DNA from: Mya arenaria
Taxonomy: Eukaryota > Mollusca > Bivalvia > Myida > Myidae
DNA length: 64,000 nt
Direction: 5' to 3'
NCBI RefSeq assembly: GCF_026914265.1
Contig: NC_069126.1
Span: 77,317,232 to 77,381,231, forward strand
Shown here: piece by piece, positions 12,812 to 62,743 of the stretch
Numbering within the stretch: the first letter of the stretch is position 1
Layout of the letters: each line of letters starts with the position of its first letter
The notes under the pieces: generated by a model
Told to the model about the DNA's origin: nothing
The model's database searches: none
What the model saw: only the letters and a program-made list of their open reading frames with translations
Program-made: the position numbers and the translations under genes

Positions 12812-15800
12812 ATGGACGCCAAATTTTACGCTCTTTGTTGCCTTGGTAAGCACTTTAGATTTATATATTTAAATGTTACCTTTGATGATTTTCTTAAATC
12901 TCATCTCGTATTTCTATCCCTTCATATTCTTAACTGTATATTTATATGTAGTGCATGAGATAATATTTCCCATCTAAGCCCAATATATTTTAAGATAATC
13001 ATAGATATGTGTTTGACTTTGCTTCTTTAATTTTCTTTGGTTTAAATAGTCCCAATCGATATCGTGAAATGGATGCTTAATGACTCTCTTATTGAAGACT
13101 GTCCAGCCGATATCAAATTTTTAGCAAACAAAATATTTATACTATGTTGTTTGTTTATTAATATTATTTTTTTAACTTTTCTAATTGTAGTGTTCGTTGG
13201 AGATGCATCCGGCTCGTGTGGGTCATTGACACTTATGAAGCCTACTTTTGTGGACAGAAACATCACCTTGAAATTTGTCCCTCGTCATCAATGGATCTTA
13301 AACATTGTCTGGAAGTATACTAATGAGTGGGACGTAACAAGTGAACACACAGTAAAAGGCATCGAGGAACATTTTCTACAAAATCTTGGCAATGGGCCAA
13401 ACTATCAAACTATGATGTTCTTTGCGGATAAATCTCGCAATAATTCAAAATTGCATGTTAAATGTAGCGATAAAAACGGCAAATCTTCAACAAACACTGT
13501 GAAGCTATACTTACATGGTATGTCTAGATATGTATATTACTTTTAGTATATAAGTATGCTTATTGGTAATTTTAAACGTGTAAATATATAATTGCATCGT
13601 ATTTAAAGTACAATGATGTTAATAGGCGTAGGTCAAGGATTCCTCATAAGCCTTCTGTCTTTATTTATGAAACTCTGCATCTAAAGTGAAGAAATAGTAA
13701 AGGATACCTTGAAATATCTGTAATTTCAGAAATCAGGCCCGAGTGTGGCAATCTGGTGCTACTTTCCCCGGAACTAAAATATGGAACAAATGTTGAAATA
13801 GCTTATTACCCTTCTGACTTTATATTGGCCAAAGAGAACCCTTCGAACAATGAACGTACATGGTTGAAATGGCCTGCACAGCCCGTGCGACATGGCCTTT
13901 ATGAAGAGAAGAAAATATCTGACTATTTGTACACTTTAACCATCTACAATTTTATGGAGAATAAAGCTGGACCTTACGGTTTGAAATGTGGACATAGATT
14001 TTTATCTCAAACAAACTGGTTGGACATACAAGTGACAGGTAAGTCTCGATTATTTTTGTTCTTTAAGACTGAGCGATCACATTGTGCGTACTTACTTAAC
14101 AAGCACTTTATTCATGTTTTAAGATAAGCAGCTTATTGGACCCATACGGGATGGTTGTGTTTACGGCAATGCAGACACTACCATTTATTGCAACACAAGT
14201 CGTACGAGAGGAAAACCTCGTGTGACGTTTTCCATTGGAAGCAAAGTAGTTACAATGTTAAAGAACGAAACGAATTCAGGGGTATATACAGTTGTACTAG
14301 ACTCAAACACTTGGAGGAACCATGACGGCGATGTTATAACATGCAACGTCTCTGACGATGATTACGTACACGACCTGAATAGTTCAGCTAAATTGTGTTA
14401 CATGGGTAATTGCACTTTTTTCCTCCAAGAATATAACTGCGTATTAAAACATATGTGCTTAAAGCATTACTACATATAAGTTATTTCTAAATAACGTCAT
14501 TTCTAACGTTAACTGTCTAGTTCACATGTGATACTTTTTCACATATATGGTGTTTGGGTCAATACGCTCTAAGCACTAAAATTCAGTGTTAGTTCGCGTG
14601 CAAATTGTCTATAGAAAATGTATTTAGTAGTCTGCGACCATTAGTCGTCTCTGTACGTTGTGGTATGAATGGATCAACTGTTGTTGTCTATCATTAGAGA
14701 AAGGCTCGAACCCTATTTTGGTCATGCCAGAATACATCTACGATGAAAATACGACAGTTAGTTGCGATGTGTCAAATGTACGACCGCCAGCGGTGATTGA
14801 AATATTGGTAGACAACCAAGCCATTGATGCTATTCAAAAAGATTTATTGAACGAAACGTCAAAAACTTACACCAGTAAAGCTTCTATATTGAAGATAGAC
14901 AAGAATTGGAATGGGAAGGAAATGTGTTGTCGTCGAAAAGCTACAATTTACGAAAATATGGAACTCACCTGTAAAACATTAAACATAAAGTGTAAGTTTA
15001 TGTAAGCTGTATAATTCCAATAATAACGTTCATCGTGCATTTGGACCTTTACATATTTTCCTATCCATAACTATTTATTCAGTTGCTCTACATTTCTGTT
15101 GTTAGATTCGCCGACTGAACTGATTATGACCTTTACCTTAGCTTCATCTAACGTTACTAAACAGTCAATTGACGTTACTTGTTTTACGATGGAATCCAAT
15201 CCTCCTTGCGGTGTGAATTTGTCGACCAATACCACACAGTTGGTGAAAGAGTCCTCAATGTTTTGGACAGAAAATACGGCTAGTGGATTCAAGAGCTATA
15301 TTAAAGCTACTTTTTCGGCCGAAATGATGATTGGCAGAGGAATAATCAATTGTTTTACAACTTGTGACAAAAACTTGTCAAATTTGAAATCTAACTTTAC
15401 AATAAATCTTCCAAGTAAGTTACGCAACTTTACAACTTAGATTATTTTGAAAGGTTTGAATACCTTAACGTTTGTTCTTACCTATATTGTAGCACAAAAA
15501 CATAATGTTGCTAATAAGATATTCTCATATGTTTTTGTCGATATATTTGTAATGATCTTCATCCATTCCGTCATGGCAATTTTTTATTATTTCCATCCAT
15601 AATGTAGAGAATGGTGCAACGTATTTTGATTGTACAAATGGCGAAACAGATTTTCAGAAAGGTAATTCTGGGAATGATACAAGTAGAAGTGGTATATGCA
15701 CCGAGACGAATAACCCGTAAAATATAACTGATTCGACCGACGACGGAATAACTAAATGCGAATGAGCAAATGTTACGTAATTCCATTCACAAACATTAAA

Positions 15801-18800
15801 ATATATTGGAACCATTGCGCCTCATAATCATTAATCCTAATGTTGAAACTTCTTCCACTTAAATCATCCCTTCAGTTGACATTGATAGCATTTTAGATTG
15901 CAGTTACAATAAACATTCATTCAATGTTTAGATGGCCAAGGTATGGTGAAGGAACTGAATGTTTTGGAAGGAAGTAACGTATCGTTCAAATGCAAATATA
16001 ACCATGGCAACCCTCCGCATGAATCATCAGTGGTATGGACAAGAGCCTCGAACAACCTACGTTGGGAGAACTGTTCTCTTGAAATCACGTCTGTTCAGAG
16101 GTCTGATGAAGACTTTTATACATGTACATTCACAAGTAAAATGGTAGTATCTGAAGAGATTCATTTGAATGGAAGCATTTGCGGAACGCTGCGTTTACAT
16201 GTGTGCTGTAAGTGTATAACTTAGGAAAGAGCAATTCTTTGCATAAATTTCTGCAAACCAATGATTGAAGATTGCTGACAATAATCAGATCGTAGATTTC
16301 CATATTTCCGTTCGAAAATTAATGTTTTATGGCTTAAACCGTTTCTAACGGTTCAAGGAAAATGTATTAAATATCATTTTTGAACTTTAATATAAAAATC
16401 TGCAATCTATTTTTTTGTTAGCAGTCTTATATAACTGGTTTTCATGGAGTTTCGCAAAAAAATATGCTCGTTCCAAGACAATAAATAAAGAAGTTGTCAA
16501 AACGTTCAATCTGTGAGAGTGCAGCTTTAAAGCTAATAATGTAAAGCAGCATAGTTGATGTGAATACTTTGTTTTCATACATACTACGTGTTCTTTCATT
16601 CTTTATCATCGAAATAACAGCAGATGGCATTTCTATTTTTCAAAAGTTTTTTAAGCTGAATTTCCGAACATTTGCTTCCATACATACCATAAGACGAAAA
16701 TAAAGATCCGAACATAAATTCATCCTTATAGCATCTATTCAAAATATTTTCTTCTTCTTTTATCTTTGTCTGACTTTGTAATACGAATTTGCCGGGAAAC
16801 TCACACACTAATTGACCGATAAATTAAAATACCGCACCATACGTCAAACGTGATGTCCCCGACGATGCGTGGTCTTCACCCCCATCTTGTAAACGACCTG
16901 TCTATGAATGTTTATTATATGTTTGCACTGGAAAACGCGAAAAAAAACAAAATTATAAGGAAACTATTGGAAAACTATTTCTTCACGAGCCAGCATAGTG
17001 ACGACAGTTTACACCATCAGCAATCAAAACTTGGCGTGAGGTGTGTCCCATGGGTAGTAAAGGGTTATTTAAAGAGGGGTAATTTGTACATTGAATTATA
17101 AAAAAAAACGTAAATCTCCAAAAACAAGCAAAAAGAGACAGAAAAGTTGTTGATTTCAGTGTTTTATCATATTTTGTTTCACCGAGATCATAAAAAAAAA
17201 CATTTTTTAATATGTATTCTATAAATATAATAATAATAAAATACGATCTTATACTAAAATCAACAGATATCCTCTATGTTTTCGTCCGAAATGTGATCAC
17301 TTCAGATTTATGATAAGTATCATATTATAGAATAATAACAGAAAAGTAATAATCGTTAATAAACATTAATGCATTTTCAGACAAATCAACGGTTAAAGAC
17401 TTTGCTGTTATAGGCTCGGAGTACACAAATAGTGTTACCAAAGCCGAAAACGACACAGCAGTACTAGTGTGTGTGGTTGATAGTAACTCTAATGCTGAAA
17501 TAACCATCGCTAAAGCCGACGAAATACTGGAAGTGGAAAATAATGGAAGCAATCTGACGCACACTACAACTAGTTTGTCATGCTTAGATACCGGTCTCTA
17601 CTCGTGTACGAGTGCAAACAGATACAACCGCGATCACCCGTCAAAAGACATACTTGAATTGCTTGTTACCTGTAAGATTACATTGTTGTATAGTGTGTAA
17701 AATTTATTTCTGAATGCTCTAAAAAACTCAGTATATATGACTTAATGATTCTTCAAAATATACGACTTCTAAGCAAATACAGGGCGTTTACAGTGTTGCT
17801 CCTTCAGTTACTGCCTTAATCAATTCCAGACTGCATTCGTCATACTTTGGATGTCATTTGTGCTTGCGCTGATCTATCTATCAAAATATATATATATATT
17901 GAAAAAAAAACATCACCAATAGCATGTATTCCAATCATGAACACCAAGCAATCCGGTCTTCTTCCATTCTTTAGGTTCGGTCAGACGCCCGTACGATGGG
18001 AATGTGAAGCTCATTTTTTATAGTCCATTAAATGAAAATGTGACGTTATCGTTCACTGCTTATGCATACCCTATACCTTTACCATGGCAATTTGTTTGGG
18101 AAAAATGCGTTGGAAACGAGAATTGCACGGAAGTTACTGCAAATTTGTCCAAATATGTCATTTCGACCATCGGACTGTCGACTTCACTTATTATTACTCA
18201 AGTAAATGAAAAGGACTATGGACCATACCAGTTAACAATTTGGAATGGTATTGGTAGAGAATTAACGGAACGATTTCAATTAAAGAAAGGTAGTAAGCCG
18301 TTTCACAGCGTTTTTTTTTTTTACATGAATACATGGTTATTAAGATGATGCGTTCATCGCTTTTATTACTGACGGCATCCAAGGATAGTTGCGACCGTAA
18401 AGCTAAGGTCTAATTTGATGTGCTTGTAATTAATGTATTTGTATATTTTTGACATTTCAGAAATAAGACATTCCACTTTAACTATTGGTGCTTCTGTCGG
18501 AGGAAGTATCATTGCTATGGTTATTGGATCTGTTCTTCTTGTATATTGCATTCGGCGAAAGGTTTCTCTCAGCAACGTGTGTGGCACCTGTGGTTTTCGT
18601 AATAAAAGTAAGTATAAATCTGCATCTTGTTATGTTGATTACATTGAGCTCATTTTTAGTATTCATGAATTGTGCTATATCAACTTTACTCCTTTAACTC
18701 CGACTAATACATATTTAAAAGGCGTCTACCTTCAGTTCGTTCACCAGTGGTTGGTGGTAGTACTCGTTAGTATATCATCAGTAAAAAAGAAGCCCGTATA

Positions 18801-19871
18801 ATGTTTGTAAAACCATTTACTGCAATATAGCTTGTTTATATTTCAGATTCCAATTCGAGAGCAAAAGAGGTGGACATGTGAGTTTGTTTCTTCTGTTGTT
18901 ATAATGTTGGTACGTGTTAGAATATTTTTGGACTAGAAACTACATTTGAAGTAAGTTACATAAGTTATTTGCAGCACTCTGCCATTACAGATTGTACCAT
19001 TTGGTAGTCCTCTGTATGTTTAATAGATGTTTTGCATATAAGTCGTTTATTACTTCACAGGTACTTGACTTGCGTGCATCATTCAAGGCCAGTTACGGAC
19101 GTAAGCCACTATCAGAGCATAAAGGATATATTGGGTAAATATTTTAATATTTATATTTACCATCATTTTAATATATTGGGTAAATATTGATATATTTCAT
19201 TATGATAGTTGACCTAGGAAGAGGGACGAACCAACATAGAAACGATGAAATATATATCAAAATGTATCTTATGTATATCTTGGCGAATGTTTTCTAAAGC
19301 TTTTCTTCCGTAATGTGTTTATGTACTAATATTTATGAAATATTCACAGAAGTGGAAACTCGTACGGATGACGAAAATGTCGGCGCACCGCAACCATTAC
19401 CCTACCAATCGCTACGTACGTGAATTAGTTATATTTACAATGCAACATAATAATTATATACTATTTTAACTATTATCTAAAAATTCGTTATAAAACCATT
19501 CTTCATGTGCATACTAGTATCTCTTTTCATATAACTTTCGTTTGTTAGAAACTTAAAAGGATCACACTTCATACTTTATGATAATTAATGTAATTGACCT
19601 CTTATTTCCAGAGCAAGTAAATGTCGGGTACGTACTTCCTTATACATTAGATATCATCTACATGCATTTTGTTTTCAATTCACCAATTTTATTATCCACA
19701 AATATGCTATGGTCAGGTCGATTGGCAATATAGTGATGGTGCTTGAAAACTCTTATGTTCAGCTACCAGGCGTGCCTGTAGTTTTCATTTTCTTATGGTG
19801 ATCAAATAAATTTGAATCAATCTTTCAGGGAAACAATTGAATACGATGACTTACGGGAGAATCCATTTTAA
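12812..19871 (+). CDS. Transmembrane receptor with eight Ig-like exons and three ITIMs
   Basis: Exons: 12812-12845, 13191-13517, 13730-14038, 14124-14405, 14698-14991, 15106-15414, 15932-16207, 17381-17671, 17975-18289, 18461-18607, 18847-18877, 19061-19134, 19350-19415, 19612-19627, 19829-19871. They join in one frame to 937 residues plus TAA. Residues 1-19 are a signal peptide (MDAKFYALCCLVFVGDASG). Exons 2-9 (residues 12-812) each hold one Ig-like domain, and every boundary from exon 1 to exon 10 is phase 1. Typical F-strand motifs include DEDFYTC (exon 7), DTGLYSC (exon 8) and DYGPYQL (exon 9, without Cys). N-X-S/T sites are many. Exon 10 has the membrane helix (about 818-843) followed by IRRK. 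The tail carries SHYQSI (Tyr889), LPYQSL (Tyr915) and IEYDDL (Tyr929), all matching [SIVL]xYxx[ILV]. By family knowledge these recruit SHP-type phosphatases, so an inhibitory immune or adhesion receptor is inferred. The splice model is mine. Ligand and orthologue are unknown. Confidence 0.85.
15608..15661 (+). other. Possible 54-bp cassette mini-exon or Ig-exon remnant
   Basis: Lies in the intron between receptor exons 6 and 7. It has acceptor TGTAG at 15603-15607 and donor GTAATT from 15662, and is 54 nt, a multiple of three. Inserted between the phase-1 neighbours it reads KNGATYFDCTNGETDFQK without stop. The frame also stays open into the following intron until a stop near 15718. It could be an alternative exon or the stump of a ninth Ig exon. 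No transcript evidence is available here. Confidence 0.3.
16208..17380 (+). other. Longest receptor intron, between Ig exons 7 and 8
   Basis: A 1.17-kb intron with small unsupported open frames (for example 16850-17101, plus) and poly-A stretches. No acceptor/donor pair encloses a recognisable Ig domain, so I see no hidden exon. Confidence 0.4.
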
Positions 19872-20637
19872 TAGAACAAACAGATGGATGAATGCATTTA
19901 AAAGCAGGAAAAATTATCGAATGGAACAATGAAATACCACTTTCATTTCCCTGACAAATCTCAATAAGGATCGGAAATACATAACAAATACGTAATTTCA
20001 CAAGAAAATGCATTCATAATAGTATTAATCATTCCCTTAATCAGTTAGATTAAGACTTTCACAGAATATACGAAAACAATAATGATTTATTGATAAAGGA
20101 ACGTATAAACTGGTAATATGGTCATGGTCGTCATGCCTTGTAACAAGACTGCTCAAGTTATTATAACAAGCCACTCATATAATCCAGAACACTATTAAAG
20201 TAAAGATAATATTAGAAGTAATAGTTACATGACCTAAAGTAAATTCTTAATGATTAAGAATGGGCGGAGTGAGCGCTGCGAAAAATCCAACGTAGGTATT
20301 GTGTATAAGATGTGTGACAGTAGGCGGATCTTTAAATACCCGCGAAAGTGAAATTCTTTATGATTTAAGTCTATTACTGAATGAGTGTCCATCTGCATTT
20401 TCATTTGCTGAAAATGAAGGTTTTATTTTTTATATTTAAGCTATTGTTGCTATGGGGCCTGTCAGGCTATATACGCGGTAAACCGTATGACCGATAAGTT
20501 GGAAAATACAAATGTGTACAGTTTAGGTTATGATGTCCATTAAGACTACTCTTAGTTATTCATTAGTGTATGAGTTCCATACATAAAGTGTGTAGTCTTG
20601 TTTTGCTCATTTCCGTTCATAACATGTATGACAGACA
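19872..20637 (+). other. Receptor 3' UTR and flank
   Basis: Sequence after the TAA stop. No strong AATAAA is seen close by, and AT-rich stretches follow. No further exon or gene is recognised before the LINE tail at about 20640. Confidence 0.35.
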
Positions 20638-23600
20638 GACAGATCATTTATTTACCAGAAGATCATAGACCCATGTGGCCGAATATCATACAAAAATGAC
20701 GACAAGTACAAAACATGTGTAAATAGTCATACATATGTATGACCTTTCGTGCACTACAGACAACATTTAACATACCAAAACATACAATAACCACAATTTT
20801 AACAATACAATTACTGGTATATATGTGATCATATTTTATATGCATATACATATACATAAACACCCACACATACATATACACATATAACACACACACATAC
20901 TTATGTTGGATATAATGCAACATTTCTAAGTTCGAAAGCCTTGTATATAAACATACTCAGATTTTTTAAAATAGTTTCATTTTCTGTATTGATCAACGCA
21001 ATTAATTTGTACATACTAGGATGTTGTCTATAATACCTAGGTATAAATAGCATTCGTAGTTCATTAAATAATGTGCACTCTAGTAGAAAATGGTATTCAT
21101 CTTCTAATAAGGAACAAACAGTGCATTTACGTTCATTTAGGGGCGTTGATTGCGGTCTATTCCATCGTCCCGTTTCAATGCTTAATCTATGTGAGGATAG
21201 CCGCAATTTGGACACCGACATTCTAAATTTAGTAATATTTAAAATGTTGAGATATGGTTGAAATCTAAATTCTGACACATTTTTGTAAAACCTAGCCCTA
21301 CTGGACATGTCTAATCTACTTTGCCAATCTTGAATAAAAGTATCTTTTAACCTTTGTTTAACAAGACACAAAAATATCTTAACAATTCCAATTTCTTGAT
21401 AAAACCAGGCATCATATAAGCCTAAACTACAAAGTAGGTCTTTTGTGAGTGAACACCAATTTGGTTTGTTTGGATGCTGTTCCATATCTGCTTTCAGCAT
21501 GTTATAAACCTTTTTATAATATTTACTTTCATTACTATGTAATAGTTTCACCCAGTATTTAATTATACTCATGTATCTTATTGTCTTAAAGCTAAGCCTC
21601 CCTAACTCTCCATATATGAAGTCATTTTGTGTCGTCTTTTTTACACCGAGAAGACGTTTACAGAATTGTAAATGAACTCGTTCAACTTGATTGCCTTGAG
21701 CAAATCCCCAAACTTCCCCAGCATAATTTAAAATAGGCGCAACAAGTTTGTCAAATAAATCAAGTCTATGTTTAACTGATATGCTAGTAAATTTATAAAG
21801 ATATTTGTTCATTTGAAATATCGCTTTAAGTGCTTGACCCGCTAATGTTGTTTGCGCATCAGAAAACGATCCTCCATTGCTAAACACAATGCCAAGGTAC
21901 GGAAACTTGTTTGTAATTTCTATTTCAACATTGTTGTAATAAAACTTCATATCCCCCCTTAATCGTCCACCCTTATGAAATATCATAATTTTAGTTTTAT
22001 TAGTATTAACTACGAGTTTCCATCTATTACAATATTCAAACAAAGCATCTAAGCTTAACTGTAGTTCATTTTCGGAATTTGCAAATAATACTATATCATC
22101 AGCATATAAAATCAGAAATATTTTAAACATATTAACATCTATGCCATCTAGGCCTTTGTGTATAAAAACATCTTCTAAATCATTTAAAAACATAGAAAAT
22201 AGGAAGGGCGACAAACTTTCGCCTTGCCGTACACCTAACCTACAGTCAAAGCCTTCTCCTAATAAATTATTATGTTTAACTTTCGATTTGACATTATCAT
22301 ACATTGATTTAACTATATTTAATATTTTACCTCTAATTCCAAGTTGAATTAGTTTGTACCAAAGATTATCTCTTACAATATAATCAAAAGCTTTTGTGTA
22401 GTCTATAAAAGCACAATATAAACGTTTACCTTGGTTTAACATATGATTAATAATACCATGTAATACAAAAATGTTGTCAACAGTTCCCATATTTGACCTG
22501 AAACCTGCCTGTGCTTCGATATACACATTGTATAGTTCTGCCCAATCAGTCAACTTATTGTTTAATATCCGCGTAAATAATTTACCAATGGTGCTCAACA
22601 ATGTTATCCCTCGATAATCATTTTCATCATTAACATTTCCCTTTTTATGTAATGGTACAATAAAACCCTCAGACCATGTCTTTGGGAAATATCCAATATC
22701 AAACAACTTATTAAAAAGTGTAAGTAGATGCGGTAACAATACAGACTTTCCATGGATGAAAAATTCATTTATATGCATATCTGGTCCACCACTGTTATTT
22801 GTGTTTAATTGTGCAATAGCCTTTATCAAACAATTAGAAGTTATCGGTGTATTTAATTCATTTAACATAACATCGAATTCATTCTTCTCATATCTATCTA
22901 TGAAATCAACAACATCCTCATCGATAGAGAAAAAAGGGTCATCGGGGTTATTTACCGTTTTAAAATACCGTTCAAACGTGTCTAAAGATATATTGGTGGC
23001 TTGTATATTAGCACAGCCTTTTAACATATTCCAATATAACTTTGCATTTTTAAACCGCGATTCATTTAACTTTTTTGTTTGCATTTTATCACAAGAAAGC
23101 TTATTTCTACGAATGCACATTTTATAGCGAGATCTCGCATTTACCATATTTAATCTATTTTCTTCGGAGTTGTAATGTCTAAAAGTATTTAATGTGCTAT
23201 AAAATAGTCTCCTATTCTCATAGCAATCTTCATTGAACCAAGGCTGGTCATTGCTAGAGCTATATTCAAAACGATTTGTGTCCGACTGAATAAAACATTT
23301 ACGCATAAATGGTTGTGCCGAATTATGTATAATAGCAGAAAACTCAGAAATACAAGAGTCCAAATCTTGGGCTGTTGTAGCATTTTTTATCCTAATATTA
23401 CAAGATTGTAAATCATCAAATGTATCTTGACATGATAAATTTTGCATAAAAACATCTTTTTTACTACTATCCCACACGTATTTACCTTTAACGCTACTAC
23501 GACTACTCTCATTACATGTTACATCTGCTGTATGTTTACTAAAAGACAATGCAAAATTAACAGCACAATGGTCTGATAATATGTTTGGTGAATCAACAAC

Positions 23601-24122
23601 AAAACTAGAAACATGCTCAAATAAATTTTGTGTAGTTAAAACATAATCTACAACACTTGACCCTCGACAACCAACATGTGTATAATTGCCCACTTTATCT
23701 CTATCAAAACGACCGTTTAAGATACGTAATCCGGTTTGTTTACACAAATCTAATAGCATTAATCCGTAATTATTTATCCTGCCTTTATCCTTCGAACATC
23801 GCGCAATAGGTACATCAGTTATATAGTTATCGGGTAAAAAATCATTTATATGTGTATAATTATCATCTGTAACATAATCTGGGTAATCCGACGTGTGTGC
23901 ATTCAAGTCTCCACAAAGCACAAAATAAAAGTTTGAATTATTTGATTCAATATCGGTTATATGGGAAAGTAACCTATCAAAAGTATGTCTTTCAATTAAA
24001 CTTTGTCTACTACTATTTTCCGGTACAACATACGATAAACAGAAATACAAATCATTATCTAACCCCAAGGTCGAACCATTAATTTTAATACATAATGTAT
24101 GTGTTTGTATATGTATGTATAA
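20638..24122 (-). mobile_element. 5'-truncated non-LTR retrotransposon (LINE)
   Basis: On the minus strand the element runs from a truncation near 24122, where the frame meets a stop beside a TG/TA-rich stretch, to a 3' tail at 20638-20660. The tail reads AATAAATGATC followed by (TGTC)n. The protein-coding part is intact, and a 3' UTR of about 260 bases is rich in TATG repeats. Terminal short tandem repeats are typical of the CR1/L2/Jockey supergroup. The exact clade is not resolved. It sits 0.8 kb downstream of the receptor gene, in opposite orientation. Confidence 0.88.
20901..24068 (-). CDS. LINE ORF2: endonuclease-reverse transcriptase (N-terminus missing)
   Basis: A single uninterrupted frame of 1055 residues. 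Residues 1-180 are the C-terminal half of an exonuclease-endonuclease-phosphatase domain, with CGDLNAH near 53-59 and the catalytic-type SDH near 165-167. The reverse transcriptase spans about 465-720, with FIDYTKAFD (554-562), GVRQGESLSP (612-621) and the active site YADD (655-658). A C-terminal zinc-knuckle-like CTVC...H...C lies at 982-998. The frame stays open upstream to about 24122 without a start, and the first half of the endonuclease is absent. The element is therefore dead on arrival for endonuclease function, but its lack of stops suggests recent insertion. The listed start is only the first possible start codon in the truncated frame. Confidence 0.9.
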   Translation of the reverse strand: MGLDNDLYFCLSYVVPENSSRQSLIERHTFDRLLSHITDIESNNSNFYFVLCGDLNAHTSDYPDYVTDDNYTHINDFLPDNYITDVPIARCSKDKGRINNYGLMLLDLCKQTGLRILNGRFDRDKVGNYTHVGCRGSSVVDYVLTTQNLFEHVSSFVVDSPNILSDHCAVNFALSFSKHTADVTCNESSRSSVKGKYVWDSSKKDVFMQNLSCQDTFDDLQSCNIRIKNATTAQDLDSCISEFSAIIHNSAQPFMRKCFIQSDTNRFEYSSSNDQPWFNEDCYENRRLFYSTLNTFRHYNSEENRLNMVNARSRYKMCIRRNKLSCDKMQTKKLNESRFKNAKLYWNMLKGCANIQATNISLDTFERYFKTVNNPDDPFFSIDEDVVDFIDRYEKNEFDVMLNELNTPITSNCLIKAIAQLNTNNSGGPDMHINEFFIHGKSVLLPHLLTLFNKLFDIGYFPKTWSEGFIVPLHKKGNVNDENDYRGITLLSTIGKLFTRILNNKLTDWAELYNVYIEAQAGFRSNMGTVDNIFVLHGIINHMLNQGKRLYCAFIDYTKAFDYIVRDNLWYKLIQLGIRGKILNIVKSMYDNVKSKVKHNNLLGEGFDCRLGVRQGESLSPFLFSMFLNDLEDVFIHKGLDGIDVNMFKIFLILYADDIVLFANSENELQLSLDALFEYCNRWKLVVNTNKTKIMIFHKGGRLRGDMKFYYNNVEIEITNKFPYLGIVFSNGGSFSDAQTTLAGQALKAIFQMNKYLYKFTSISVKHRLDLFDKLVAPILNYAGEVWGFAQGNQVERVHLQFCKRLLGVKKTTQNDFIYGELGRLSFKTIRYMSIIKYWVKLLHSNESKYYKKVYNMLKADMEQHPNKPNWCSLTKDLLCSLGLYDAWFYQEIGIVKIFLCLVKQRLKDTFIQDWQSRLDMSSRARFYKNVSEFRFQPYLNILNITKFRMSVSKLRLSSHRLSIETGRWNRPQSTPLNERKCTVCSLLEDEYHFLLECTLFNELRMLFIPRYYRQHPSMYKLIALINTENETILKNLSMFIYKAFELRNVALYPT

Positions 24123-29181: not shown

Positions 29182-32100
29182 TTATTCATCAATTACAAAG
29201 TCATTGTCCATCCCATCCTTGTCAGTTGGCTCCCTCCACTCTTCAGTGACGGCATCATCTTCATCATTATCTACCGGTACGTCACAGTTGTCCCCTGACA
29301 TTCCCTGGTCTAAACATGGGATGCGGAAACATCCGTATTCGATTGACCCATTCACGTGTTTACCCTGGAAAATAGACATGATTAAATCTGAAAATATACG
29401 TCTTCTATATTCAATATTAAAAACATATTATCCCTAAAACTAATTTGCTTTTTATTATTCAAGCAACAACGTACGGAGAAAAACGGACAGAGAACAGTAG
29501 AGCAACAGCACAGTTTTTATTTGATAAAAAAGTGTTGCACATAGTTACATATCTTAGAAACTGAAACCAGACGACAAATATGGTAAAAATGTTCTCAAAC
29601 TTTGAAGATACTCTACATGTTCTATATAATAATTAATAACGGTGCCAGAAAGGGTAAGGTGTGAGGAGATCGTACGTTGATGAGTGCGTTTCCAAGGAGA
29701 CGCGTGCACATTCTGCGACCTCTGACATTGTAGATCTGAAAACACAGGGACTTGTCTTTCCCGAGCCCGGGCACAGGCGTGCAGACGTTCGTTCTGTTTA
29801 TCACTGGAATAGAAATATAGTAAGTTTCTATTAGTATACAACTGTATTTGCACCAACACGCCAAAAGATGGCAGAAATAGCTTACTATATGAATCAGATA
29901 CAAACAGTTCCAATTAAATTGTCCGATCAACTCAAACGATCTGTAGCTAGGTATAATCAAACAAAACAGTGACTATTGTCTTTTGTTTAGGCACAACTGG
30001 TGTAAAGCAGATACAAGTATAGTAGCTGAACTATTGCTTATTGTTCGAAGGGACAACTTTGAAACCCTTCGTAGTTAAGAAAAAAATCACAAACAAAGTC
30101 AACGCAAGACTGCACATTTCAGTGAACATCAATTTAATACTTTGGGTGTCCATATTGGGTTTGATCATATGTTTTGTGACCGTTTGTGTCCGTCTTGGAA
30201 TGTCTATGACGCATTGAACCACTTAACAGGTTCGTCGTCAGTTGTTTGACTACTGGGGTTTTACTATAGTCTTTTTTATTTGCTTCTTGATAATCAAAAT
30301 ACTAAAGCTTTAGTGCATGTAAAAGTTATTTTGCTCTTGCTAGACGTCCTAAAAGTTGCAAAACTTCTGTTGTCTCATAGGTTAAAAAATCCACCGTGTC
30401 ATGAACCATGGTCGTCCCTGTCCTGTGAATATGGTCGTTCCTGTCACGTGACCATGGTCGTCCCAGTCATGTGACCATGGTCGTCCCTGCAATGTGACCG
30501 TGGTCGTCCCAGTCATGTGACCATGGTCGTCCATGTCAAGTAACAAAGGTCGTCCAAGTCATGTGACTATGGTCGTCCCTGCCATGAACCATGGTCGTCC
30601 CTGCCAAGTGAATATGGTCGTCCCAGTCATGTGACCATGGTCGTAGCTGTCATGTGACTATGGTCGTCCCTGTCATGTGACCATGGTCGTCCCTGTTATG
30701 AACAATCGTCGCCCCTGTCATGTTACCATGGTTGTCTCTGTCATGTGACAATGGTCGTCCAAGTCATGTGACCATAGTCGTCCCTGTTGTGAACCATGGT
30801 CGTCCCTGTTATGTGAATATGGTCGTCCCTGTCATGTGACCATGGTCGTCCCAGTCATGTGACCATGGCCGTCCCTGCCATGTGACCATGGTCGTCCCAG
30901 TCATGTGACCATGGTCGTCCCTGTCATAAACCAAGGTCGTCCCTGTCAAGTGAATATGGTCGTCCCTGTAATGTGACCATGGTCGTAGCTGTCATGTGAC
31001 TATGGTCGTCCCTGTCATGTGACCATGGTCGTCCCTGTCATGAACCATGGTCGTCCAAGTCATGTGACCATGGTCGTCCCTGTTGTGAACCATGGTCGTC
31101 CCTGTTATGTGAACATGGTCGTCCCTGTAATGTGACCATGGTCGTCCCAGTCATGTGACCATGGCCGTCCCTGCCATGTGACCATGGTCGTCCCAGTCAT
31201 GTGACCATGGTCGTCCCTGTCATAAACCATGGTCGTCCCTGTCATGAACCATGGTCGTCCTTTTCATGTGACTATGGTCGTTCATGGCATGTGACCATGG
31301 TCGTACCTGTCATGTGACTATGGTCGTCCCTGTCATGTGACCATGGTCTTCCCAGTCATGTGACCATGATCGTCCCTGTCATATGACTATGGTCGTCCCG
31401 TTTCTCTGTAGGTTCTATTTCATTATGAGCATTGCTTTTGAATTTAAAGGATTTCTTAAGACAAGACAATATGTTTAAGTTGATTGTGACATGTTTGTTG
31501 TGATAAAAAATATCACTACCAAATCGTGCGCTGAAGGAAACCATCACTTACATCTCATTTGGTGGTAGTACGTCCGATACCCGTTGATGGTTAAGCCAAT
31601 AAGATACTCCCGTCCTCTCTTGTACTCGACTGTTCCACAAGCTGTAATCCAGCAACAGTATAAAGCAAAATGTCACGCTCAGAGGAACAATGTTAAAGTG
31701 AAAATAATATTGTAATAACTGGTGAAAGTGCAAATGTTTAAGGTTATGTAGCTCCGGGTTTCGCTACGCTACAAACACGGTAAATCGTAAGGCCGGTATA
31801 TCGAAATGATAAGTAATTATGTCTATCTAAACTAGTTCTCCCTTATTATCTTTGAAATTAATTTCCTAGTTAGGTACAGGTAAATGGATATTAATGGACT
31901 TTATTTTCAAACAAGTCATACAAGAAAGATATCAGAATAAGCCATCCAAGAAAGATACTATACTAGTACATGTATGAACAAAATACCTTGCAGCTTGAAC
32001 GTCTTGTTCACTTTCAGGGTTGTTCCGAGACAGGAGGTACAGCTGTTGTGTATGCACTGGGTCCATGGTTTCATCGTTTCAATCTTTGGACATTTGTGGT

Positions 32101-34472
32101 GGTGGTGGTGGTGGTGGTGGTGATGATGATGGTGGTGGTGGTGATGGTGGTGGTGGTGGTGGTGGTGATGATGATGATGGTGGTGGTGGTGGTGGTGGTG
32201 GTGGTGGTGGTGGTGGTGGTGATGATGATGGTGGTGGTGGTGGTGGTGGTGATGGTGGTGGTGGTGGTGGTGGTGGTGGTGGTGGTGGTGGTGATGGTGG
32301 TGGTGGTGGTGATGGTGGTGGTGGTGGTGGTGGTGGTGGTGACAGTGTCGGCGATGATGATGGTAGTGTCGGTGGTGATGGTGGTGGCATTCCAAATCAT
32401 CGCGTTGCTGATCTTAAATAATAAATAAAAAAGCAAATTTAAATAGACGTGTTTTCTTGTCAACAGAACAGCGTATGTCCGAGCCTTAGAAATATCAATA
32501 TATAGATCCAGTTCAATCGAAAAGATAGAATAAAAATCACATGCATCGCCTATACCTTTGCAAGCAAGATTGGCTTCTGCATACGCCTCTGCCTCTGTTT
32601 CAAGGTATTGCATATACGCTGTGTCATTGGCAAAACCATAACTATCAAAGTCCAATGGGCTGTCATTCTCAGAGTCTATTTCATCACCGATCGCTTCATC
32701 TTCTGATTCTCCGTAGTGATAATCGTACGTGTAGTCCTTGTCGGAATATTCTTTCGGTGCAGATTCCTCAACATCATAACTGTGATCGCCTTCATTGTTG
32801 TCTTCCATATTTTCATGGTCATCTCCTATAGTTGTTCCTTCAGAGCTCTCTGTCATCAAATCCGCTGCTTCATCAGACGCTGTATACTCGCCAACTAGCG
32901 TTTCTTCAGGTATATCTTTATCATTATTTGCTCCATCTGCTGGGTTTCTTTGATCTTAAAAGAAGGAGTTTATAATACTACATTGGAAATAGCAAGGATA
33001 AGCTCAGGAGCCAATCAAACATAGTATGTGTTCAGTGGCACGATGATAAAACACTCAATTGTAAAGCTACAGTTATTACTGACATATCTTTATTAATTAA
33101 AAACTATCATGACATTTTATCATTTTCTCAAGGAAACAATGGCTATGTAAATGTATAACTAACACCAGTTTCTAAATTCCATTTAATCAATTATCATTGT
33201 CGTTCAGAAATGTACATATTGATGTTCTTTTGCACAATACATTTTAATATGATAAATTTGAACAAGAAAAATGGCTCTATCGATATACTTTTGCAGATGC
33301 TTGTAATCGATATATTGTTGTTTTTCAGCAACAAATTTAAACACTGGACACTAATGGGACAGCAAAGACCAATACCAATTACTATAGGTGTCGCTTTGCG
33401 AGGTTTTAAACATGAACACTCACCCTGCCTTGCTTTGCGAGAATACCACCAACCTAGGCCTTCTGGTGTTGCTTTGACTTTGTCCGCGTCTTGTCTCGTC
33501 TCACTCTCTGTTAAAACAGGAAAGCAACAATCAAATCTGCAGCCTATGTGTTTACGAACATTTCAAATCCACTCGAGAAATTTAGAAATCTGAATAAATA
33601 ACAAAATCCATCCGTCAAACAATCTTAAGAGACTAATATACCCGTGCTTAATGAAATCTTTTGTGCATCATGATGTGGATGTAGGAGTGGCTGGTCGTCA
33701 ACTTCATGTGAAGCCGCTTCCCCACTGACCCATTTCAGATCTCCATTGCTTTCTGTAAAACAGGTTTTAGAGATGTTAAATGTTGAATAAGTTTTTACCA
33801 TATCAGTACAGCATGTAAATTCAATAATAGAATGATCATATCAACAATACGCTGTGGAAGAGAGATCATTCATAAGTTGTCGCTGTTAGGCTGGATCTCT
33901 TAATTGGTAAGACTAACATTGCCCCCCCCCCCCCCCCCCCCCTCATATAAATATAAACATTAAAATAAATCAGCAATTCAATATCTAAGATGGCAAGGCG
34001 TGACAAGAAATAAGCTTATTTAGCATAGATGAAACATTAAGTCAAATGATAATTAAAAATATCGAGTGTGTGTTTTTTTCTTCTGTATCTGATGTACCGT
34101 ATTTTGTATTGATTTTGCTGTTGTATACATATTAATAAAAAAAACCTTACATTATCAACGCCTGCAAATCGCCCTAACCCTCATTAATACGTCATTTACA
34201 CCTAAAATGCATATTTTGCTGATCCTGAAGAACCAGACAACGAATAATAACATCACAGATAAAGAACACACACGATGTAAGCAAATATTTAAAATTAACA
34301 AAAAAACACACAATCGAATATATACTGTATTATATTTAAGACAATTTATCTAGATGTTAGGCAAAGAATATCTGCACTTACCAGAATCCGCCTGAGCCGG
34401 AAGACAAACAACTTCCCACGGTAGCGCAACAGCCAGCAGGCACACTGCCAACACCTCTCTACACGCCCGCAT
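29182..34472 (-). CDS. Secreted acidic protein with an 82-residue polyhistidine tract
   Basis: Minus-strand exons, in order: 34472-34382, 33752-33642, 33507-33424, 32954-32556, 32412-31987, 31641-31552, 29803-29676, 29364-29182. All have GT/AG borders and join to 503 residues plus TAA. Residues 1-24 form a signal peptide (MRACREVLAVCLLAVALPWE then VVCL). Residues 96-228 are acidic and Tyr-rich (for example DKDYTYDYHYGESEDEAIGD). Residues 238-251 are His/Arg-rich, and 253-334 are 82 consecutive His (CAC/CAT). A cysteine-rich C-terminal half follows (KCPKIETMKPWTQCIHNSC; ACGTVEYKRGREYLIGLTI; several more Cys), ending in an acidic tail. CGTVEYKRGREYLIGL weakly recalls the CGxxxxxxxEYLIAG stretch of TIMP/netrin-like domains, which is tentative. 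An extracellular metal- or mineral-binding role is inferred, as for His-rich and acidic molluscan plasma or mantle proteins. No homologue is recognised. Confidence 0.8.
30395..31402. repeat. 23-bp minisatellite in an intron of the His-rich gene
   Basis: About 44 units of 'catgtgaccatggtcgtccc' plus 'tgt' or 'agt', with shorter variants such as 'catgaaccatggtcgtccct'. It sits wholly in the intron between exons 31641-31552 and 29803-29676. Each unit contains the palindrome CCATGG. Higher-order repetition of several units is visible, for example similar blocks near 30800 and 31090. Confidence 0.95.
32096..32341 (-). repeat. Coding (CAC/CAT)n trinucleotide tract
   Basis: On the plus strand, 246 bp of GTG and ATG triplets (82 triplets, about 14 of them ATG). 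It lies inside exon 5 of the His-rich gene and encodes an unbroken His run. Synonymous CAT interruptions are scattered as singles and as groups of three or four. Non-synonymous changes occur only outside the tract. This suggests selection on the amino-acid run rather than simple slippage, though slippage length variation is expected. Confidence 0.95.
33921..33942. repeat. Poly(C) run of 22
   Basis: 22 uninterrupted C within the first intron of the His-rich gene (poly-G in the sense direction). Length may be uncertain because of sequencing slippage. Confidence 0.9.
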
Positions 34473-47659: not shown

Positions 47660-50600
47660 TCAGACCGGTTCACTCTTATCATTTACACTATTAACACTAG
47701 CATCAGTTTGTATTTGATCACCAGAATCTTGCGCTTGTTTATCTGTCACATCTTTTTCATTATTATTTGAATGCAGTTCACTGCTAGTTGATTCATTTTC
47801 CTCATCATTTGTACTCGCCATCTGTCCACACTGATCCTTTTCACTTTTATCCACATTATCACCTATACTAGATTCATTAATTTCACTATTCTGCCCTTTA
47901 CTAGTTCCACCTGGGTCTTCTCCAATGTTATCAGTCTGTTCAGCTGCGGGGTCATCACCACTATTGTCTTCGGCATCATGATACACCTCCCCACTATCTC
48001 TCTTACTACCATCACCATCAACACTATCCCCCTCTGTCCCCTCTGGCTCTCCTGTAAGTCTATCTAGCACAGCTTCATCACTGTTTCCACTCTCTGCCGT
48101 TCCTGCATTCACTGTGTCAGTTCCACTATCACCTTCAGTATCATCCTCATCTTCAGCCTTTCCTTCATCAATTTCCGCATCTACATCTTGTTCCGACTCA
48201 GTTTCTTCATCATCTTCATGATCATCATCATCATCATTTAGATCACTTTCTGGGCCTTGAATTTCAACAACTGGTGTGTCCAAATCTTCCAGATGGTCTT
48301 CATCAGGAGGTTCAACCTCATGAAGAGCCTCATCTAGTTGCTCAGCATCATCATATTTGTACACCTCAGCCCCCGCATTTTCCTCATAGTCTATCTCGGT
48401 GTCATCCACTAAACTATCTGACCCTCCAGGAGGTGTTTCATTTAGGGGCCCTGTCTCTTCTGGATCTATTGGAAGACCAGGCATGTTGTCTTCTGCAACT
48501 TCTGCAATTAGAATGAACAAATTTCAAGACTTACTATATCATTAGTTTCTTGATGGACATAAACATGACATGACTTATACACAAACTCTATAAATATATC
48601 AAAATACAAAACACAATCAAAGAAGTTTGTCCCTTTGGATGAATAAGTCCCAATACAAAATACAATTTTATAAGATTGATATGGGGATATCATTAAAAGA
48701 AATCATAATAAATAATATTTAAATCATATCATTATTAATTATTAATATTAATAGTTTTCATGTTTATATAATAATTAATATAACTTAAATTAAAATTTAA
48801 TCAATAATTGACAAAATAAGGCTCGAATCATGATAAATTATTGGTTATTTAGAGATTAAATACAGTTTTGTACTTAACAGAATCTAACATGATTTTTAAT
48901 CATGAACCAATTGTGTGCTTCACACTTATTTACGCATCTGATTATGATTAAAGGAGGTATAATTTGTACTGGAGGGCGTAAGAATTACCTACATGTATAT
49001 GTGATGTGATTTCTCATTTGGGCTTTATCACTTAAAAACTGTCATGTTAATGACATTGGAGTTCACATACCAACAATGATCGGGTCCTCCGCCTGTTCGC
49101 TGTCTGTCTTGCTGTCCTCCGACTCTGACACCGTGGATGCCTCAGACACGAGACTGGCGGGCCTCTCAGCTTTTTCTCCACTGCCTGTGACGGCCGCTAC
49201 ACTGATCCCCACGAGGCTTGCATCCCCACCCTCCTGCTGGGCCTCCATCTGGATCTTCTGTATCCGACGGAGACGGTTTAACTCCTCCTGTGCAAACTTC
49301 AACTCCCGTCTCAATCTATCACGCTCCTCATTCTGACTGTTGACTGCAGCCTGTGGAACAAAAGGGGTTAAGTTAATTATATGAAGTTGTTGAGTGCAAC
49401 TGTAACTTGTATAATGGAAAATACTGGACAATTAAATGTCAACTTCAGGGTGAAAAATCAACAAAGCTTGCATATTACATAAATAATGATTTTTAAGTTA
49501 CTTTATCTATTATCAAAACTGAAAAATGAAAGTAAGAAAGTTTTGTGACATTTTATAAGAACATATGTTGCATGTTGGTCACAAAACATAATTTATAGCA
49601 TAGAAATGTTTAAAACTTGCACGGCTGAAACAGAGGTTTTGTGTCATAATACAACCATGCTGCTGAGCTACTGCATGTACAACTCTACATTGGATTTTGC
49701 ATTACTACGTTTGAAAATATATCTATAATCCTATCAAGACAGTATGCCAGTTATCTAGACCTAAAGGTTAAATGTTTTCATTCACAAACTATGAACCAGT
49801 TTATACTTCTTCATATCATTTAAATATTACAAGTCATAATTTCAACAATAACGACAATCCAAGGGTACACTTGCCCATTATTTCTAATTAAAGACTACTT
49901 TATGTGAACTTTTCTATTGGTCATTGCCACCATACACACAGTGCACACTGAACACATGCATGTAGTCACTAGAACATGAAACATACTGTCATTCACAGAA
50001 CAGTGCAAACGGATTAAAGAAAATCAAATCACTTCACTTACCAAAATTTTAGAGAACTTTCAATAATTTGCAAAACTTGAGCTGATAAAGAACTTAGATA
50101 AGATAACTCTCAACTTGCAGTTACTCATTCTTGGAAAAAATCTGAATAAGAACCTATATTTTTATGCTGATTGTGATTTTGGCCAAAAAACTAAACAGAT
50201 AATTCACATCAATGGCGTACATGGGAGTATTTATCCACACACACATCTGCATCTAAATTCCATTAAACAAATAGCAATTTTCATGTTAAGCTTCATTTAT
50301 TTCCAATATAAATATGATTATAAACACAAAAGTTTATATATATACACTTTTATTTCTTTTATATTTGCTATACTGCAAAGCTGTGATTTACTGTATGTAT
50401 ACATTTAAATGCAATTAATGTTTTAATGTTTTGCAGACATAGCTTTTTATTTCTTTAATATTTGCTACACTTTAAAGCTGTAATTTACTGTAATTTGTAT
50501 ACATTTAAACGCAATTAGTGTTTTGCAGATGTAGCTTTTCAATCTCAAAATACAAAAAATAACTACAGCATTTTCATAAACATAAGTGTACATAGATGGA

Positions 50601-53600
50601 TGTCTGATTTGTGAAGCAGTTCGAATTGCATTGTGATAACTCTACCACAGTAGCTATTTAAATGTTCACAAAAATACTGAATACCAATTTTTGAAACATG
50701 CAAAATTGTTTGATTTTTTTTAACCACGTTCTATAAGCAAAGCAAATCAGTAATAATTGTGTTTGTTTGCATTATTCGAACAGTTTTTTTTACATGGTGC
50801 ATTTTAATTTTTCACAATCAGCCAAATTTCCACAACATGCAAAACATAAATCTAAATGGCCGCCACAGAAATGATTGAGAAACATGAAACTGAATAGCTA
50901 CCATGACAGGGTGTGACAAAGAATAACATAACAATGGGGCTGACAGTCTAGAATATATCTCCATGTCTGTATAATCAAAAATGTGTACAGTTTTGGACAA
51001 AGAGTGGCAAGAACTATAGCTACAAAATTCATATGACATTATACCAACAGAAGAAAAAGCAGGAATTTCTTGACAATACTATTCAACAAGAAGATACAGA
51101 AAGATTAAGAAAAAAATATTTGGTAATAATTTCCTTTTTGCTTCTCAAGACAAAAACTGCATGTTTTTCAAAAAAAAATAATAATAATTGAATTTCCTCA
51201 ATGGTCTTTAAGAAATTATCAATAAGCCACTCTGTCCAGAAACTGACAAGTCTCTTTTTGGTAACAATAAGCAGTATAAGATTCTGTTTTAGTCTGATAT
51301 GTTCCTCAGTGTGCCAGTTCCCATACATGTATGTCCTGTTATCACGTTAGTATAACAGTTGTGTGGTGACAGCCTTTCAACATGGATCTTAACAATTGGC
51401 TCTAGCCTTCTATTCACCAACCAAACTTCACATCCATAGTTTATTAACTCTCTAAAGCAAAGCATATAATTTATGCCCAAAACACAAAACTTTCTGACTA
51501 AAATAAATACTTTAAAGCCAAAACATGTTCTACTTCTATGATTGAAGCAAACATTTTACATCAATCTTTATTTTGTTTTGTTTGAATAGAGAACCATTGA
51601 TAAGCAATAGCAATTTATTTACATGAGTTTTGACTACCTAACAACTAGCCAGTCATACTTGCATGTTACGGGTTGGTGACTACAGGGCTACAGATTTAGC
51701 AAGGCAGAGCTGTGTTAATTAATAAACATGTACTGCTGTCTGCAAAGATGCTGCCCCTCCAGTCATAGAGACATTTAGTAGCTGATAAGCCTCCTAATTT
51801 TATATATTTAAACAAATACTTACAAATGTTTTGTTTTTTTAATTAATCAATTTTGAATGGCCTAAGTTTAATTCATCCAATCTAGCATTAGGCAGAAAAG
51901 AAGCAATTTAGCTGACATACAAGATGGAAATATCAGGTTAAGTGAAGAGAGATTTCATTTGATTGGTAACAAAGAAATATGTTCCAATTAGGACTGAATG
52001 ACTGGAGAGTGTTTAGTTTTAGTTGCCTAGCAACGGTTGCCCTGACCTGAGACATTGATGCTGACATGGGATTGGCTGTTGCTCGAGTTTGTGCCTGACA
52101 AATGAAACACAAAAATAACATTAACGGTACGGAGACCACATGGACATGAACATTCCTCTAGATGCTGGCTGAAAGATGATGACGCACACGGAAAATGAGG
52201 TCTGAAATAGTGGAATGAATGTTCTAACAACTTCTGAAACACAAATTTACAGTTACAAATGTACAACAATGGGACAACATTTGAAATAGGATGACATGGT
52301 AGCTACTGGCTTCTCTAAAACTCCGCAAGAATATTTGCATTTCTTCCGTAAGTCTATTTGATGGGTAATTATGTAAAAACCTAATTTCTGTACTCCCGAA
52401 TTCTTACAATTTTGGCCCAGTTTGCCAAGAACAGATTTCTGTATCAAGGCTTGTATTCTACCATAAACTGGGTACAGGAATATTTCACTGATTTGGCATA
52501 AAAAATGTCCTTACAAAACACCATTAACAAAATTGGAATTGAAAGAGATTTGTTTAAACTCCAGATAGTTCTAAATTTCTTTAAAGGACCATCATAAATA
52601 CATGTATCATACTTTGCCAGGCTGATTTTTTTCTTGCTGAAAATACCATCTTAACAGCATCACTTTCCAAACCATGAATACAATAATTAACGAAACAAAT
52701 ATAGTGTTTTCTACAGGCCTAAAAGTGAACAGTGAAAGCGATGGTGATCAGCTACTTCAGGCACCAACACGTTTAAAAAGCCGGTAATGCATCTCAACAT
52801 CCACCAGGCTAATCAAGTCCTACACCGGCTCAGCTTGATTTGTACTCTCAAATTAATCGATTAAAATATTTTAAAAACGAAACAGACCTGTATTTTAGTA
52901 ACCTTTTAAGCAAAGTCAGGTCCTATAAATTTTCATCAAGCTATGCCTTGTAAAAAGACATGATATCGTCAATAATTATCTAACATACACTAAAATTGAA
53001 AACTTAAAGGGTGAACAACTTTTCACAACACCAGGATTTAGTTTTTGGAATCACCAACTATAATGAAAACCATCGAAATATAAACAAAATACAGGGGTGG
53101 TATTTCATTAACACCTTTGAAAACTTAAAAATCAAAGAAAAAAAGTTAAAAATGTAGAACAGAAATAACGGACATAATTTCATTCAGAGAATCAAGTCAC
53201 TGAAGCATGACAAGATCTGAGTAAAGAAGCATAATGAATACCACCCCAGTGTACACTAAGCCTGGAGTACCTGAGTACCCTGCTACTCACCAGTAGGTTT
53301 GTGAGTATCTGGTTCATGCGGTTGGCCATGTCCCGAAGTTTGTCCATGGGAATGGGCAACGTTAGGTCTTCTACAGACTCGATCCTCTCGCCAGCTGTAA
53401 ACAATCACGTTACAGTTCTTCACAAGACACTCAATATGTATCTTATAACTGCACAATACCATGTTTTCTATTCATGTGGAATAAAAAAGGGGGACCATGT
53501 TTTATTTCTGAACAAGCAGTAATATCATTGACCATAAAAATCTGTATTCCTGGCTCATTTCTCGCCAATGTTACTCTTCAAACATGATGTGCATCCCTAA

Positions 53601-62600: not shown

Positions 62601-62690
62601 TAATGGATTGCTCATGTTTCATAGGCTGATAGAACAGCTTGTCCAGAATCTTCAGATTACGAACATGGCACTTCTCCGTGTAAAACAGCT
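47660..62690 (-). CDS. ARHGEF12: ARHGEF11/12-type Rho guanine nucleotide exchange factor, C-terminal part
   Basis: Fourteen minus-strand exons join in frame to 904 residues plus TGA: 62690-62544, 62159-62080, 60678-60553, 59999-59882, 59605-59433, 59036-58705, 57378-57262, 56783-56665, 54922-54813, 54202-54085, 53394-53291, 52094-52047, 49350-49071, 48501-47660. Numbering from the first visible residue, the DH domain covers about 1-190. It opens ELFYTEKCHVRNLKILDKLF and contains LRDIIPKQFMRLTKYPLLIE. The PH domain covers about 216-335 (GPLIWNINN; VILQKQEDRLVLKL; AFFVVNTSKAGPQIYKLL; RIWTKYI) and closely follows the PDZ-RhoGEF/LARG pattern. Helical or coiled-coil parts follow (EERDRLRRELKFAQEELNRL near 538-557), then a 280-residue acidic Asp/Glu/Ser tail. 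These proteins activate RhoA downstream of G-alpha12/13. The PDZ and RGS-like exons must lie beyond the window. The 48-nt exon at 52094-52047 is the least certain. Confidence 0.9.
61436..61938. mobile_element. Tc1/mariner-type MITE (503 bp) in a RhoGEF intron
   Basis: Inverted termini CTGTGAAATCATT and AATGATTTCACAG are flanked by TA on both sides. 'gttcgtggggcatt' and 'acccacgaaattg' lie inside the arms. No transposase. Confidence 0.7.
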
Positions 62691-62743
62691 CTGAAATAAG
62701 TTGAAGAATGGTTTTGAATAGCATCCATCAAATTTTTCAATTA

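Follow-up and report, generated by a model that had tools for sequence, protein, structure and literature searches.

A microsatellite-derived run of 82 histidines predicted in a probable secreted DUF4773 protein of the soft-shell clam Mya arenaria

The question raised by this locus is whether a CAC/CAT microsatellite in the genome of the soft-shell clam Mya arenaria is translated into a long run of histidine (His) residues, and what such a run would do. The stretch analysed, here called the window, is 64,000 nucleotides long (assembly GCF_026914265.1; NC_069126.1, positions 77,317,232-77,381,231), and coordinates are given as window positions. A gene on its minus strand, referred to here as the H82 gene, was proposed in a first-pass annotation to encode a secreted, acidic, Cys-rich protein with 82 consecutive His. 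In the reading favoured here, with a probability of roughly 0.55, the gene would encode a secreted DUF4773 protein in which a microsatellite in a coding exon expanded to 82 His, and which likely serves outside the cell as a sink for metal ions and protons. The sequence itself shows an intact exon structure, the His frame, DUF4773 membership, a second copy that is likewise intact and has 81 His in its run, and relatives that lack the run.

The H82 gene was modelled as eight exons on the minus strand (34472-29182) that encode 503 residues with no internal stops. The start codon is found at 34472, the stop codon ends at 29182, and seven of seven introns have GT-AG borders. The parts of the gene are as follows.

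34382..34472, minus strand: exon 1, residues 1-30, with the start codon and a signal-peptide-like segment
33642..33752, minus strand: exon 2, residues 31-67, with AG/GT borders and phase 1
33424..33507, minus strand: exon 3, residues 68-95, the end of which falls just past the RXXR motif R91-K-A-R94
32556..32954, minus strand: exon 4, residues 96-228 (133 aa), an acidic, Tyr-rich linker
31987..32412, minus strand: exon 5 (the His exon), residues 229-370, which carries the H82 tract and in which DUF4773 begins
32096..32387, minus strand: CAC/CAT triplet array of 97 units (Tandem Repeats Finder) that contains the pure 82-codon His run
31552..31641, minus strand: exon 6, residues 371-400, DUF4773
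29676..29803, minus strand: exon 7, residues 401-443, DUF4773
29182..29364, minus strand: exon 8, residues 444-503, with the end of DUF4773, an acidic tail and the stop codon

Residues 253-334 of the predicted protein are 82 uninterrupted His, encoded by 68 CAC and 14 CAT codons with the CAT codons in seven separate groups, and the run is immediately preceded by the sequence HHHHHRHYHHHRRHC. The proposed run was therefore recovered in an intact model, together with the other parts originally described, namely a signal peptide (here a signal-peptide-like start), a 133-residue acidic, Tyr-rich exon and a Cys-rich C-terminal half. The hydrophobic segment of exon 1 starts at residue 7 and has a mean Kyte-Doolittle value of 3.25 over 11 residues, and R91-K-A-R94 is a possible furin-type site. 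Exon 4 encodes 42 Asp or Glu against 5 Lys or Arg, and 11 Tyr, in its 133 residues (isoelectric point 4.05), and the last 33 residues of the protein are also acidic (15 of 33 Asp or Glu). C-terminal to the tract are 11 Cys. Six Cys of the protein (227, 237, 252, 336, 460 and 470) lie outside the signal segment and the eight shared with relatives; of these, Cys252 is directly N-terminal to the His run and Cys336 is C-terminal to it, with one Lys between.

The triplet array can be read without a stop in each of the three minus-strand frames, so the openness of the His frame proves nothing. Exon 5 (426 bases) is bordered by AG and GT and is in phase 1 at either end, and its frame was examined using the Pfam profile of DUF4773 (PF15998), to which the Cys-rich C-terminal half was found to belong. 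Residues 335-503 scored 29.7 bits against a cut-off of 27, which was also passed by the protein P0002 (29.8 bits). The score fell to 13.2 bits without the exon 5 part and to 15.6 bits with that part in the one wrong frame scored, and none of six controls (one reversed sequence and five shuffles with Cys fixed) gave a DUF4773 match. The match thus needs exon 5 in the His frame, supporting that frame. Further support is provided by NCBI protein MAR_021926 from Mya arenaria, which is identical to residues 342-503 (162 residues), and by the sole AG between the tract and Met342, which would shift the frame on joining to exon 4. The acceptor, phase and frame originally assigned to this exon are hence retained.

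The genome (1.216 Gb in 18 contigs as searched; reported as 1.22 Gb and 17 chromosomes for the reference, PMC10663159) was found to contain a second whole gene, copy B, on the same chromosome but on the opposite strand and 72 Mb away (C5:5438762-5444050). Its exons are intact and encode 502 residues with 81 His in the run. Exon 1 is identical in the two copies and exon 4 differs at 1 of 399 nucleotides. The order of CAC and CAT within the tract is largely different, yet all codons specify His. In exon 5, 20 of the 423 sites that align differ and there are three gap columns besides, compared with 7 differences at 1086 sites in the other exons and 39 at 2763 in the introns with a minisatellite left out (other exons against introns, Fisher p 0.049). 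Outside the tract, the codon differences are five synonymous and four nonsynonymous (4 of 9; binomial p 0.049 against an assumed 0.75). The H82 gene thus appears to be under mild constraint, with exon 5 its fastest-changing part. Copy B may be either a duplication or one allele placed twice.

The minisatellite has a 23-base unit in ~44 copies (30397-31399) and lies within the intron that separates exons 6 and 7; 2 of its 1003 sites differ between the two gene copies, far below exon 5. The greater part of window positions 14054-64000 has a second, inverted counterpart at C5:5.41-5.456 Mb, made up of blocks that are 94-99% identical, and the best matches listed for the sequence before 14054 are minisatellite with ~80% identity. 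A stretch at 20631-24094 is absent from this second copy and contains most of an open frame for a reverse transcriptase and endonuclease of the long interspersed nuclear element (LINE) type (20901-24122, minus strand). As the second copy lacks this stretch, the LINE insertion is probably recent or polymorphic.

The architecture of the protein, which the first-pass annotation had not recognised, can now be placed in part, as the Cys-rich half is DUF4773 and the overall plan is shared with relatives, none of which has the His run. Searches with a single sequence gave no homologue at E values up to 10, either for the C-terminal part (64 candidates) or for the His exon (10 candidates). A profile search gave nine matches among 885 candidates; one was MAR_021926, the public model of the H82 gene itself, and the other eight include proteins of Mya, Dreissena and Asterias. 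P0001 (MAR_017690, Mya) has a hydrophobic N-terminus, an acidic linker (21 of 71 residues Asp or Glu), a CxxxxCxxC motif and DUF4773, and the same plan, with a CxxxxCxxC start, is found in P0007 (LOC127853004, Dreissena) and in the H82 protein. The combination of hydrophobic N-terminus and acidic exon in these three proteins was read from the sequence and is not a Pfam criterion. P0009 had no Pfam match. Two adjacent His were found in none of the eight relatives, four of which (P0001, P0003, P0007 and P0008) cover the linker. The H82 protein differs from these relatives in the His run and in its six extra Cys, two of which are at the ends of the run.

The eight Cys of the H82 domain align with those of two further genomic loci, L001 and L002, and the four later ones are also present in L003-L005, whose exons begin inside the domain. 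No CAY run (where Y is C or T) of at least 4 units was found in the 3.2-3.3-kb loci around six DUF4773 places on another chromosome, and none of at least 6 units in L028 and L067-L069. L028 lies ~30 kb before the window start and contains paralogue traces resembling exons 7 and 8 that look broken. A sequence search of solved structures gave no credible match, and none of 635 Foldseek matches had an E value up to 0.001. The C-terminal sequence had at first given the impression of an NTR/TIMP-like domain; no NTR fold was among the 50 entries listed, which excludes nothing. DUF4773 has been reported among the top ten marker genes of macrophage-like cluster 1 of oyster haemocytes (PMC12064177), in octopus skin mucus (PMC11431876) and in locust pleuropodia (PMC6966819), and the accessible text of these three reports gives no function for it.

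Whether the purity of the tract is informative was assessed using 29 loci with CAC arrays (27 on contig C1 and 2 on C2), obtained by clustering the first 100 places in a list of 1650 overlapping matches; coding and non-coding loci are not distinguished in this sample, and the longest run at a locus need not coincide with its CAC-core array. The pure CAY run was the longer in 18 of the 29, the pure YAC run in 8 and neither in 3. Pure CAY runs of 40-60 units occurred at six loci (longest 60) and pure YAC runs of 43-73 units at four (longest 73). Long triplet arrays that vary only between C and T at one position are thus no exception in the sample. None reaches 81 units, and the H82 run exceeds every one of them. 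As such arrays are common in this genome, the purity of the run says nothing on selection or function, and it was rejected as proof of selection. In human DNA, non-coding CAY runs of up to 154 units have been reported, with His runs in proteins stopping at 15 (PMC2644819). At the protein level the run is far above the maximum of 15 in that 2009 human survey; at the DNA level it is a long member of a common microsatellite class that is placed in a coding exon.

A serious rival is that the microsatellite expanded within a disordered linker and is translated, but is merely tolerated and has not been selected for any role, and that DUF4773 and the acidic linker do the work. The abundance of C/T triplet arrays of the same kind is consistent with this, as are the excess of differences in exon 5 over the introns, which indicates fast turnover of the tract, and the missing His run in all eight relatives, including the four with the linker. 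However, both copies carry an unbroken run of near-equal length (82 and 81) despite different CAT positions, though this is a single comparison, and a run of 82 His would bind metal whether selected or not. An expansion without a role is accordingly considered somewhat unlikely.

In the favoured reading, that of an extracellular sink, the CAC/CAT microsatellite in exon 5 would have expanded to a His run where the acidic linker meets DUF4773. The protein would be secreted, and may be cleaved after RKAR94, and the eight Cys common to relatives would form four disulfides that hold DUF4773. A further disulfide, Cys252-Cys336, could conceivably close the His run into a loop. At a pH like that of seawater, His residues are mostly neutral ligands, and 82 of them in succession should take up a large number of Zn, Cu, Ni or Cd ions; metal binding by the H82 protein is chemically likely. 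At pH 7.5-8 the His would be mostly neutral and free to bind several Zn, Cu, Cd or Ni ions, and below about pH 6.2 they would be strongly positive and could bind acidic segments of their own or other molecules. With the pKa of His set at 6.0, the computed net charge of residues 95-503 is about -37 at pH 8, zero between pH 6 and 6.5, and +58 at pH 5, a reversal suggesting that acid would drive the His run onto the acidic segments. The protein would thus most likely act outside the cell, in plasma, mucus or matrix, as a sink with a high capacity for metal ions and protons. Shell, byssus and extrapallial fluid had been named as possible sites, and none of them was singled out by any result of this analysis.

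A more elaborate version, which we regard as speculative and rather doubtful, is that the very long run, possibly looped by Cys252-Cys336, forms a metal and proton buffer opposite the acidic chain, that pH or metal switches the protein between soluble and condensed states, and that length is held near 81-82 while the DNA turns over. If this were true, the H82 run would be among the longest unbroken His runs known. A close variant of the sink is a gel set by pH or metal, in which the run would be a structural or pH-switched element and a gel, granule or matrix would form as its His bind metal between molecules, and acidic segments. Such a role has been proposed for the His-rich domains of other invertebrate materials, and the presence of acidic segments and a His run in one chain, with a computed charge that reverses between pH 6 and 6.5, fits such a role. 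However, the DUF4773 reports from oyster macrophage-like haemocytes, octopus skin mucus and locust pleuropodia, in their accessible text, point to no structural material, and this variant is judged improbable.

Several observations weigh against the favoured reading, in which a translated tract, a secreted protein and metal binding are predicted from the DNA. Exon 5 could be skipped whole with no frame shift, as its 426 bases start and finish in phase 1. A candidate donor, a GT located two bases 5' of the tract, would join exon 6 in frame, and an AG later within exon 5 would likewise keep the frame (in-frame AGs are found at exon positions 402 and 426, the latter being the final two exon bases). 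The full-length protein including the His run scores 26.6 bits, just below the DUF4773 cut-off of 27. The Fisher and binomial tests of selection are both marginal, and because this genome has many pure triplet arrays of two letters, the clam may tolerate the run without using it. A search for orthologues had been suggested to see whether the run is conserved, and none of the eight relatives, four of which cover the linker, carries it. The one oyster DUF4773 gene reported is a marker of a macrophage-like cluster rather than of the small granule cells that store copper; copper storage was seen in small and big granule cells (PMC12064177).

The public model, MAR_021926, is also unfavourable, as it begins at Met342, with seven codons between this Met and the tract, and lacks the signal peptide, the acidic exon and the His run. 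The Mya arenaria annotation is reported to have been made using MAKER with repeats masked (PMC10663159), and repeat masking can explain the truncation. That the public model is correct, with a transcript that starts within exon 5 or a tract that is 5' untranslated, so that the 162-residue DUF4773 part alone is made, has the start at Met342 in its favour but is very improbable, as this form would have no signal peptide, whereas P0001, P0003, P0007 and P0008 start with hydrophobic N-termini, as exons 1-4 fit in phase and are almost unchanged in copy B, and as the masking can account for the short model. The H82 gene, with a public model that starts just past the tract, suggests how repeat masking can conceal a coding homopolymer.

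Known His-rich proteins were also compared. The mussel HRG/HIP carries a C1q domain. A Pfam scan of the full H82 protein at E values up to 10 gave DUF4773 and a weak, unrelated match to PAT1, and no C1q, and assignment to the bivalve HRG/HIP/EP was therefore rejected. Bivalve plasma is reported to hold His-rich, metal-binding proteins, and in mussels one His-rich protein of the plasma is reported to bind metals and transport them (PMC6530089). HRG/HIP/EP of Mytilus edulis plasma is, like the H82 protein, a secreted, His-rich bivalve protein, and HRG is reported to bind metal (PMC6530089), but the H82 protein has no C1q match and its His form one unbroken run beside DUF4773. Phosphoprotein particles rich in Asp, phosphoserine and His have been reported in the plasma of Mya arenaria itself (PMC6530089), and are His-rich and acidic like the H82 protein. 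Identity with this phosphoprotein was rejected on composition, as the H82 protein contains 8.7% Asp and 4.6% Ser.

Natural poly-His, as in the H82 protein, is also found in the poly-His-poly-Gly venom peptides of Atheris, which contain Gly runs, are short and are not known to carry DUF4773. These peptides are reported to disturb zinc in a metalloproteinase (PMC12108757). Human poly-His proteins such as DYRK1A carry His homopolymers likewise encoded by CAC/CAT, but with at most 15 His in the 2009 survey, which also reports that 15 of 22 poly-His nuclear proteins gather in nuclear speckles (PMC2644819). If made, the H82 run would be a natural His tract that exceeds the longest human one in that survey more than fivefold, in a clam that lives in sediment. 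Literature on Mya and histidine, in a coverage that leaves out most subscription journals, includes no title or abstract opening that names this protein.

Elsewhere in the window, immunoglobulin-domain frames at 13046-18801 on the plus strand probably belong to one gene, and similar frames were found at L028 (502-2995), ~30 kb before the window, beside the broken DUF4773 pieces that resemble exons 7 and 8. Exons of a RhoGEF gene are located on the minus strand at 47660-62727 and include a DH domain (62419-62727) and a PH_16 domain (58701-59054); a very acidic stretch at 47660-48523 is perhaps part of the same gene.

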